A program made the position numbers and the translations under genes. The notes beneath the pieces are model-generated. The model was not told the origin of the DNA. It saw only the letters and a list, made by a program, of their open reading frames with translations, and did no database searches. 64,000 nt of DNA from Streptacidiphilus sp. ASG 303. GTDB taxonomy: Bacteria; Actinomycetota; Actinomycetes; Streptomycetales; Streptomycetaceae. Shown here piece by piece: positions 356 through 8,396 of the stretch; position 1 is the first letter of the stretch; each line of letters starts with the position of its first letter. The stretch is from assembly GCF_020991365.1 (NCBI RefSeq), contig NZ_JAJLRA010000011.1, positions 1 to 64,000 on the forward strand, read 5' to 3'.

Positions 356-2146
356 ATGGTGAGGTTCAGGATGTGGCCGGCCCCCGGGGCCCGGCGGACC
401 GGCCGCGGCGCCCGCCGGTCCGGCCGGCCGGCGGATCCCCGGACGTGGACCGCCGTGGCGGTCGTCGCCGCGCTGGTGTCGTCGTCCGTCGCGGGGGCGC
501 CGGCCCGTCCGGCCGCCGCGCCCGCCGCCGGCGTGCCGGGGCCTCGCGCCGGGGAGGCGGACCTGCTGCTGGACGGGGACTCGTTGACGCTCGGCCAGAT
601 GTTCGCGGTCCTGGACGCCTCCCGCGTCTCGGTACGGCTCACCGCAGGGGCGCGCGCGAGGATGCGGCGGAACCGGGCCGGGGCGCTCGGGGCCCTGCGC
701 TCCGGGGCGCGCGTCTACGGCTGGAACCAGGCGCTCGGCCCGCTCAAGGACCGCGAGCTCACCCAGGCCGAGCAGCGCCGTTTCCAGCGCAACATCCTGC
801 TGTCGAACGCGGCGGGCACCGGTGCGCCCTTCCCGCCGCAGGTGGCGCGGCTGGCGCTGGTGCTCCGCGCCAACCAGATGGCGCGCGGCCGGATGGGGGT
901 GCGCCCCCAGCTGGCGGAGCGGCTGCTGGACCTGGTGAACGCCGGGGTCACGCCCGAGATGCCGCAGGTCGGCTCGTTGGGGATCGGCGACCTCCAGCCC
1001 ATGGCCGAGGCCGGGCTGGTCGCGATCGGCGAGGAGGCGCCCGCCCGGTACCGCGGCGTGGTCGGCCCGGCTTCGCGGGTCCTGCCCAGAGCGGGCCTGG
1101 CGCGGTCCTTCACCCTGGAGCAGGGGGAGGCGCTGGCGGTGATCAGCGGCAGCACCGTGGTCGCCGCCGACTTCGTCCACGCCCTCCGGCGGGCCGAGCG
1201 GCTCGCCGGCCTGGCCGAGGGCGGCCTGGCGCTGTTCATGGACGCCACGGGGGCCGAGGCCGCCGCCCTGGACGCCCGGACGCACGCCGAGCGCCACATC
1301 CCCGGCGAGACCGGTGTCGCGGCCCGGTTGCGGGCCCTCGTGGCGGGCAGCGGCTGGATGACCGACGCCGGGCGCCGTCGGCGCGGGGAGACCCACGACC
1401 GGGTGCAGGACGCAGTGTCCGTGCGGGCGGCACCCCACATCCTGGGGGCGCTCCGCGAGGCGCTGGCCGACGACCGCACCGTCCTCGAACGCGAGGCCGG
1501 CTCGTCCACGTCCAACCCCCTGGTCTTCCCCGTGCCCGGCGGACCGGACGAGTTCCTGATGGGCGGCAACTACGACGGCGACCTGCTCGCCCACGAGATC
1601 GACCGGCTGAACGGCCACATCGCCGACGTCGGCGTGCTGTACGAGCAGCTCTCGGCCCGCCTGCTGTCCCCGGTGTGGAGCTACGGCCTTCCCGCGAGCC
1701 TCGCGGGCGGCAAGGTCGGGCTCAACTCCGGCATGGTCCAGGTGCAGACGGTGGCGACCGCGCTGGTGCCCGAGATGCAGGTGAGGGCGTACCCGCCGAG
1801 CGTGCTGTCACGCCCGGCGAAGACCGGGCAGGAGGACCACAACACCATGGCCATGGCCTCCGTCCGGGCGCTGCAGGAGAACCTGGACCGCCTGGAGGTC
1901 GTCATCGCCGTGGAGATGCTGATGTCCGCGCAGGGCATCGACCTGATCCGCGCGAGGATGGACGGACTCCCCCTGGGGGCGGGGACGGCGCTCCTGTGGC
2001 GCGCGATCCGCCGCCGCATCCCTCCCCTGGGGGACGACCGGTGGATGTCCCCGGACCTCGACGCGATGATCCGCCTGGTGGCCGGCGGGGAACTCCTGGA
2101 CGCCGTCCGCCGGGCCGACGCCGGGAGGCTCCGGCGGACCCCCTGA
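356..2146 (+). CDS. Secreted aromatic amino acid lyase (HAL/PAL) homologue lacking the MIO triad
   Basis: This 596-residue protein belongs to the histidine/phenylalanine ammonia-lyase superfamily. The C-terminal half has the family signatures SSTSNPLVFP (near residue 385), GGNYDGD, VGLNSGM and GQEDHNTM. The N-terminal tyrosine loop appears as YGWNQALG. Normal members carry GASGDL, whose Ala-Ser-Gly cyclises into the MIO electrophile. Here residues ~205-212 read GSLGIGDL, so the triad is missing and the loop is one residue short. The N-terminus is Arg-rich followed by a hydrophobic stretch (WTAVAVVAALVSSSVAG), like an export signal, which is unexpected for a cytosolic enzyme family. The start is uncertain: in-frame GTG at 320, 347 and 350 are alternatives. 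I chose ATG 356 because GGAGGGG lies about 10 bases upstream. Deaminase activity is doubtful; a binding or structural role is possible. Confidence 0.75.
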   Translation: MVRFRMWPAPGARRTGRGARRSGRPADPRTWTAVAVVAALVSSSVAGAPARPAAAPAAGVPGPRAGEADLLLDGDSLTLGQMFAVLDASRVSVRLTAGARARMRRNRAGALGALRSGARVYGWNQALGPLKDRELTQAEQRRFQRNILLSNAAGTGAPFPPQVARLALVLRANQMARGRMGVRPQLAERLLDLVNAGVTPEMPQVGSLGIGDLQPMAEAGLVAIGEEAPARYRGVVGPASRVLPRAGLARSFTLEQGEALAVISGSTVVAADFVHALRRAERLAGLAEGGLALFMDATGAEAAALDARTHAERHIPGETGVAARLRALVAGSGWMTDAGRRRRGETHDRVQDAVSVRAAPHILGALREALADDRTVLEREAGSSTSNPLVFPVPGGPDEFLMGGNYDGDLLAHEIDRLNGHIADVGVLYEQLSARLLSPVWSYGLPASLAGGKVGLNSGMVQVQTVATALVPEMQVRAYPPSVLSRPAKTGQEDHNTMAMASVRALQENLDRLEVVIAVEMLMSAQGIDLIRARMDGLPLGAGTALLWRAIRRRIPPLGDDRWMSPDLDAMIRLVAGGELLDAVRRADAGRLRRTP

Positions 2147-6938: not shown

Positions 6939-8396
6939 TCAGAGCGAGCTGCCGGCCTTCCAGTCCGCCCAGGAGAGGTTCCAGCCGTTGAGGCCGTTGG
7001 CGGGCGCGACGGTGCGGTCCCCGGAGTGGACCACCTCGACCACGTCGCCGACCATCGAGCTGCCGTAGAACTCGGCGCCGGGGGTGTTCGGGTCCCTGCC
7101 GCCCTTGGTGTCGCGCAGGCCGATGCAGCCGTGGCTGACGTTCTCGTGGCCGAAGACGGAGGGCGGGGACCAGTAGTTGCCGTGGATGAAGGTGCCGGAG
7201 GTGGTGAGCCGCTGCGCGTGGGGGACGTCGGGGATGTCGTACTCGCCGCCGAGGCCGACGGTGCGGGAGTTCATCCGGGTCTGCGGGTACCGCTCGGAGA
7301 TCACCATCACCCCCTCCCAGGTGGGGTGCTGCGGGCTGCCGCCGGTGACCTCGTAGACCGCGCTCGTCCGTCCGTCGCGGCGGACGGTCATCCGCCCGGT
7401 GGCGAGGTCGACGGTGCTGACCTGGCTGCGGCCGATGGTGAAGTGCACGTCCTTGGACTGGACCCCGTACACGCCCTTCGCGCCCCGGACGTCCCTGAGC
7501 CGCAGCCGCAGGGTGATGCGGGTGCCGGCCGCCCAGTAGTGCCGGGGGCGGAAGTCGAGCCGGGTGGCGTCGAACCAGTGGCCGACGACCTCCACCGGCG
7601 GGTCGGCCTCCACGGTGACGGCCTGCTGCACGGCCCTGCGGTCGGTGATCGGCGTGTTGAAGACGATCGAGACCGGCATGCCGACGCCCGAGACGGAGCC
7701 GTCCTCGGGGGTGAAGAACCCCACGAAGGTGTGGTCGGGCGCCTTGGTGGTGAAGGAGGTGTTGGACACCGCCTGCAGCTTCGCGGCGTCGACGGCGGTC
7801 GCCGACACGGTGTAGCGGGTGGAGATGTGCAGGGGGCCGGTGGACCGCCAGCGGGTGGAGCCGGCCTCCAGGGTGCCCGCCACCTGCCGGTCGGCCTCGT
7901 CGGCGACCCGGACGGAGGTGAGGCGGCCGCCGGAGGCGGTGACGGTGACGCCCTGCTCGGAGTCGGCGTTGCGGGTGCCGTCCGGCGGGTCGACGGCGAT
8001 CCGGGCGGTGGAGACCCTGGGGGTGCTGCTGCTCGGGGAGGCGGACGGGGTCCCGGCGGGGGCGGCGGAACCCCGGGGGGAGCCGGCCGAGCCGGAGGCG
8101 CCGGGGCTCTGCCCGCCCTTGGCCCCGTCGGAGCCGTTGCTGCACGCGGCGGCCAGGGCGGCGGGGGCCACCGCGAGGCCGGCCAGGACGCTGCGGCGCG
8201 TCCAGTCGCGGGGGGCTGGCGGGGCGGCGGGCGGGAGCGGGCCCGCGGCGGCGGGCGGCCCGTCCGGCGGGGCCGCGCCGGGCGGAGCCGTGTCCGGCGG
8301 GCGGGCGGGGCGGTCCGGGGGACGTCCGGCGTCCGGCGGCTGCGGGGGTTCCGGACGCCGCGGGGTTTCCGGGGGCTGCCTGTCGGGTGCCGTCAC
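6939..8396 (-). CDS. Tat-exported L,D-transpeptidase lipoprotein (YkuD)
   Basis: A 485-residue peptidoglycan cross-linking enzyme. Domain order: about 65 Pro-rich residues, a twin-arginine signal TRRSVLAG with lipobox ALAAAC (Cys near residue 86), a Ser/Gly/Pro linker, two Ig-like domains (~130-330), and a C-terminal YkuD domain. The catalytic motif is seen as HGNYW and then SHGCIGL, whose Cys is the nucleophile making 3-3 cross-links from tetrapeptide donors. The Pro-rich region ahead of the Tat signal is odd. The GTG start has GGAGA six bases before it, but a later start may be the real one. Confidence 0.85.
   Translation of the reverse strand: MTAPDRQPPETPRRPEPPQPPDAGRPPDRPARPPDTAPPGAAPPDGPPAAAGPLPPAAPPAPRDWTRRSVLAGLAVAPAALAAACSNGSDGAKGGQSPGASGSAGSPRGSAAPAGTPSASPSSSTPRVSTARIAVDPPDGTRNADSEQGVTVTASGGRLTSVRVADEADRQVAGTLEAGSTRWRSTGPLHISTRYTVSATAVDAAKLQAVSNTSFTTKAPDHTFVGFFTPEDGSVSGVGMPVSIVFNTPITDRRAVQQAVTVEADPPVEVVGHWFDATRLDFRPRHYWAAGTRITLRLRLRDVRGAKGVYGVQSKDVHFTIGRSQVSTVDLATGRMTVRRDGRTSAVYEVTGGSPQHPTWEGVMVISERYPQTRMNSRTVGLGGEYDIPDVPHAQRLTTSGTFIHGNYWSPPSVFGHENVSHGCIGLRDTKGGRDPNTPGAEFYGSSMVGDVVEVVHSGDRTVAPANGLNGWNLSWADWKAGSSL

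Follow-up and report, generated by a model that had tools for sequence, protein, structure and literature searches.

A predicted exported protein of the aromatic amino acid lyase fold, lacking the MIO triad, belongs to a conserved clade of Streptomycetaceae and Streptosporangiales

The stretch of DNA analysed (the window: 64,000 nucleotides of Streptacidiphilus sp. ASG 303) carried, close to its first letter, a gene on the forward strand for a protein of 596 amino acids; the translation of 356-2146 is QVGSLGIGDLQPMA. The candidates for the start codon were ATG 356 and the in-frame GTG 347 or 350, near GGAGGGG. An earlier note, made from the letters of this DNA, had given the reading frame, its coordinates and several motifs, all of which were correct on translation. 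The features of the gene were as follows (HAL, histidine ammonia-lyase):

356-2146, forward strand: coding sequence of the predicted exported, MIO-less PF00221 protein (596 amino acids; translation and PF00221 match, E 7e-114)
446-496, forward strand: hydrophobic core of the predicted export signal, residues 31-47, behind an Arg-rich N-terminus (sequence and hydrophobicity)
584-2011, forward strand: aromatic amino acid lyase domain, residues 77-552 (PF00221 match and AlphaFold model)
716-748, forward strand: YGWNQALGPLK, with Tyr121 (HAL Tyr53) and Lys131 (Lys of ergothionase WNKD), both invariant in the 11 members aligned (alignment)
971-1000, forward strand: GSLGIGDLQP at the Ala-Ser-Gly site of MIO enzymes, triad absent and one residue shorter (alignment)
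1145-1147, forward strand: Ser264, replacing HAL Asn195 (alignment)
1406-1426, forward strand: QDAVSVR, with Gln351 and Arg357 kept and Val354 replacing HAL Tyr280 (alignment)
1562-1576, forward strand: GGNYD, with Tyr/Trp406 replacing Phe329 and Asp407 replacing His330 (alignment)
1748-1750, forward strand: Thr465, at the second Lys of T. denticola ergothionase (TIQKTF) (alignment)
1829-1843, forward strand: QEDHN, with Glu493 (HAL Glu414) kept (alignment)

The contig begins with the first base of the window, and the genes upstream are therefore out of view. No conserved operon was found when the flanks of 12 loci were compared: there was no common neighbour, and the flanking genes differed in every genome. 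An L,D-transpeptidase with Big_10 and YkuD domains, an ordinary actinobacterial cell-wall enzyme, was encoded at 6942-8396 of the window (reverse strand), and a cofilin/ADF actin-binding domain protein (PF00241, E 1.6e-41), unexpected in a bacterium, was encoded near the clade gene of a Streptomycetaceae genome (L018:11513-11926, reverse strand).

The protein matched the PF00221 profile from position 1 to 465 of 466, with 381 bits vs. a cut-off of 27.3. With TIGR01225, the hutH equivalog, it scored 332 bits, below the curated cut-off of 539.15, and it was also far under the curated cut-offs for tyrosine aminomutase and phenylalanine ammonia-lyase (PAL). The closest solved structures were HALs (about 30% identity), and phmmer gave 203-214 bits to HALs vs. 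108 bits to ergothionase. Confidence in the AlphaFold model (mean pLDDT 75, pTM 0.78) was low for the signal and for several active-site loops, such loops being completed in HAL from neighbouring subunits. Comparison of the model with HAL, which the earlier note had proposed, gave a match of fold, the TM-score against HAL and ergothionase folds being 0.85-0.89 by target length. HutH proteins (P. putida 1b8f, T. cruzi 6v6h and the genome's own) share the Pfam family and fold with the window protein at about 30% identity, and all keep Tyr53, Gln277, Arg283 and Glu414 (HAL numbering); unlike them, the window protein has no Ala/Cys-Ser-Gly triad, no Asn195 and no Tyr280, and is predicted to be exported. 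The window gene was rejected as the true HutH of the genome, which has a separate HutH on another contig (L007) with a Cys-Ser-Gly, not an Ala-Ser-Gly, triad.

Alignment with intact HALs set the loop of the window protein, GSLG-I-GDLQP, against GSVGASGDLAP of HAL. Neither Ala142 nor Ser143 was left and the loop was one residue short, which confirmed the first reading of this site (Ala and Ser gone, one residue deleted). The placement of the gap was arbitrary: when it was moved one place earlier, Ile aligned with Ser143, and X-Ser-Gly resulted from neither placement. The X-Ser-Gly triad was missing from the window protein and from 12 of 12 relatives, all of which carried the loop GSLG[I/T]GDLQP. 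The Ile-type loop was found in the window protein, L001, L002 and L006 (Streptomyces sp. Tue 6430); it has no hydroxyl, so a serine-like precursor is ruled out there under either gap placement, and formation of MIO from a shifted triad was rejected for the window protein, in which Ile occupies that place.

These relatives, from a search for homologues such as the earlier note had advised, came from Streptomycetaceae and Streptosporangiales and were 54-81% identical to the window protein; S. naganishii was probably entered twice among them (L001 and L020). Six were given by a peptide-pattern search of 84,980 species genomes and two by a plasmid collection. A pattern search within Streptomycetaceae matched in 6 of 396 genomes and 5 of 17 genera, the window's genome included, and a class-wide search in 1 of 395 genomes, the window's own. 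The MIO-less window protein belongs to a conserved clade, and since the loop motif is common to 13 genomes a sequencing error is excluded. In Streptomyces sp. Tue 6430 the copy (L006:10001-11644) was frameshifted in its 3' half, by decay or by an assembly error.

Conservation in the clade was concentrated at the catalytic sites: 61% of the positions within 5 residues of them were invariant vs. 35% elsewhere, a contrast as high in only 1 of 5000 random block sets, and dN/dS was about 0.17-0.20 in six pairs of members. HAL Tyr53, Gln277, Arg283 and Glu414 were invariant as Tyr121, Gln351, Arg357 and Glu493. Asn195 was replaced by Ser264 and Tyr280 by Val354 in every aligned member, and Phe329 by Tyr or Trp and the next His by Asp (Tyr406 and Asp407 in the window protein); the claim that the other active-site segments remain thus stood for the first four residues and failed for N195, Y280 and F329/H330. 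Fourteen positions were invariant in the clade yet uniformly held a different residue in six MIO-containing proteins, among them Q125, S264, V354, H361, D407 and N496 at the pocket. Lys131 was found in no aligned MIO-containing protein except that of A. vitis. The conservation around the catalytic sites and the low dN/dS form the pattern to be expected of a working, specific pocket and not that of decay. The earlier note had left a choice between new chemistry, a binding role and structural repurposing, which was too open: a conserved, re-tuned pocket argues against structural repurposing alone.

A basic and then hydrophobic N-terminus was present in each of the 11 aligned members whose N-terminus is complete. 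Judged by hydrophobicity, on which the export call is based, their best 12-residue stretch reached 2.2-3.2 (Kyte-Doolittle) vs. 0.7-1.6 in the other aligned PF00221 proteins, with one exception, S. meliloti (2.1), which was also export-like. This supports the view that the N-terminus looks like an export signal, and extends the predicted combination of secretion and MIO loss from one protein to a clade with 12 relatives. L006 carried a possible lipobox (LTSC), and L001 and L002 a cysteine at a similar place, which may make lipoproteins of some members; this cysteine is absent from the window protein.

The absence of MIO in this fold is not unique to the clade, as the first reading of the DNA had implied. 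Ergothionase, of the same fold, was reported to be without MIO and to release trimethylamine (PMC13405746), and other proteins also lacked the triad, so that MIO absence had precedents, to which the window clade adds one more variant. Loops shorter by one residue were seen in R. johnstonii (GSIGA-ADL), S. meliloti (GSVGQ-ADM), Deinococcus (TSLGE-SDL) and T. denticola ergothionase (SSIGE-GDI, which aligns with GSLGI-GD), and loops shorter by three (GSxGY---L) in Klebsiella, Agrobacterium, Aminobacter, Rhizobium and Priestia. The Tyr280 position was Leu or Val in every aligned triad-less protein and Tyr in every aligned intact protein from a genome; the P. putida 1gkj row of the first tree is a Y280F mutant. 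Several triad-less proteins carry the hutH label, some of them on plasmids, and others the label “aromatic amino acid ammonia-lyase”.

T. denticola ergothionase (PDB 6s7j/6s7q) was 23% identical to the window protein, with a Foldseek TM-score of 0.74 by query and 0.88 by target. The two share the absence of MIO, the shorter loop, the loss of Asn195 and Tyr280, and the Tyr, Lys63 and Glu411 positions, but no export signal was seen in the 6s7j chain. Lys63 and Lys383 of ergothionase (6s7j chain numbering), which we take to be its catalytic lysines, correspond to Lys131 and Thr465 of the window protein, and the second position was Thr in all aligned clade members. The S. meliloti pSymA protein (L032:1501-2964), about 28% identical to the window protein, has an apparent signal peptide, a one-residue-shorter loop and the Lys63 position, and the apparently exported MIO-less type is therefore not unique either; unlike the window protein, it groups firmly with ergothionase (100/99). 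The A. vitis “histidine ammonia-lyase” (WP_174113554, L023) shares with the clade LKD after the Tyr loop and YGLPxNLAG, but has an intact GASGDL, Asn and Tyr and no export signal, and its gene lies within an ABC transporter/amidohydrolase operon.

Some further triad-less proteins deserve mention. The Klebsiella plasmid “aromatic amino acid ammonia-lyase” (L026:2833-4365; GSVGY---LIATAHI) has as encoded neighbours an ABC transporter, hutC, HutD and formimidoylglutamate deiminase, and is perhaps a lyase that acts on a methylated histidine and so supplies the hut pathway; an Agrobacterium plasmid (L029) encodes a similar protein. The hutH-labelled proteins of Priestia (L037:1333-2871) and R. johnstonii (L031:3830-5335) have neither the MIO triad nor Tyr280; the best solved relative of the latter is ergothionase, and its gene adjoins one for a glycine-betaine-type binding protein.

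The window clade was monophyletic (100/100), and its stem was long, at 1.5-1.8 changes per site. Its nearest MIO-containing neighbour was the A. vitis protein, at 83/82 in the first tree, which was built without the Priestia row (L037), and at 80/58 with the trait columns removed. The best tree split the clade from T. denticola ergothionase, with this weak placement (80/58) beside the A. vitis protein. Forcing the rows with a one-residue deletion into one clade, ergothionase among them, cost 0.49 log units (p-AU 0.45), so that the test neither established nor rejected such a clade, and forcing all triad-less rows together cost 15 log units (p-AU 0.063).

Read from its sequence, the window protein is without a triad, has an export-type N-terminus and a conserved, specifically altered pocket, and is under purifying selection. 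Our preferred reading, held at somewhat less than an even chance, is an exported or surface-anchored protein of the aromatic amino acid lyase fold which would work without MIO, likely by C-N/C-X elimination. Ergothionase manages without MIO because trimethylamine leaves readily. In the window protein, Arg357 would hold the substrate carboxylate, and Tyr121 and Glu493 would act as acid-base residues at the beta-carbon; with the electrophile gone there is nothing to activate an amine, so that the leaving group would have to depart unaided, like trimethylamine in ergothionase. The reaction, beyond the cell membrane, would break a C-N (or other C-X) bond by elimination in an amino-acid derivative that is betaine-like or activated in some other way, and release of ammonia from His, Phe or Tyr would not be expected. 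The substrate would carry a self-sufficient leaving group; the simplest candidate would be a betaine that is not ergothioneine. A bolder reading, possible but rather doubtful, is that exported MIO-free lyases arose independently in filamentous actinomycetes as a clade of their own, which would free trimethylamine or some other readily departing group from a betaine outside the cell, ergothioneine excepted (hercynine, for example, or a betaine among the natural products).

Several points count against the lyase reading: the flanking genes differ from genome to genome, the trees place the clade, weakly, next to an MIO-containing protein, the second ergothionase lysine is Thr465, and a kept tyrosine is no guarantee of catalysis. 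By the established mechanism, MIO enzymes use their electrophile to activate the amine and a tyrosine to abstract the beta-proton (cf. PMC12535398). A PAL engineered to be without MIO (S154A) no longer catalysed hydroamination (PMC12535398), and the literature is divided on a MIO-independent reaction of ordinary PALs (PMC7247363 vs. PMC12535398). A literature search found no description of such a reaction and location for this fold, and no paper on the window clade.

The strongest competitor is a pure binding role, and no gene neighbourhood favours it or the lyase reading: the proteins could be non-catalytic exported receptors, scavengers or sensors for a carboxylate-bearing aromatic or imidazole ligand. 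The combined loss of MIO, Asn195 and Tyr280, a gene standing alone with no pathway partners, the conservation of Arg357 and other pocket residues, and the possible lipobox cysteines all agree with this; the acid-base residues Tyr121 and Glu493, however, are invariant and unneeded for plain binding, and ergothionase, with the same losses, is an enzyme, so that we regard a binding protein as unlikely, though a serious contender. Chemistry other than beta-elimination on the same pocket (an isomerase, hydratase, hydrolase or mutase) appears less probable again: the 14 switched positions, several of them in the active site, suggest that the ligand or the reaction differs markedly, and the long stem fits with this, but nothing positive pointed to a metal site, a nucleophile or a cofactor site. 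To our knowledge, the precedents in the PF00221 fold are lyases and aminomutases, which also counts against it.

A true ergothionase, exported and releasing trimethylamine from ergothioneine, would account for the loop shortening (GxGD), the loss of Asn195 and Tyr280 and the shared Tyr, Lys63 and Glu411 equivalents, but is improbable given the low phmmer score relative to HALs, the Thr at the second lysine in all aligned members, and no firm grouping with ergothionase in the trees. Cyclisation of the loop to a MIO-like group could be imagined for most members, since with the gap upstream the T-type loops give Gly-Thr-Gly at the triad position; it is very improbable, however, because the window protein, L001, L002 and L006 have Ile there, and because Asn195 and Tyr280, both present in all genome-derived MIO-containing enzymes aligned, are lost. 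A decaying pseudogene or sequence error, suggested by the frameshifted relative, is scarcely credible, and for the window copy the pattern of conservation refutes it: the same motif in 13 genomes, the low dN/dS and an open frame of 596 codons.

The first observation on this gene was hence confirmed and strengthened and its interpretation supported in part, the window clade looking like a new exported type of a known, rare MIO-free kind. Labels of “histidine ammonia-lyase” are unreliable where the triad is missing. If active, the clade would be a further, exported family of MIO-free lyases, and the loss of MIO would come with a repeatable package of changes: a shorter loop, Tyr280 replaced, usually Asn195 too, and Tyr53 kept. 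This package would provide a sequence rule to spot MIO-free enzymes now filed as hutH.
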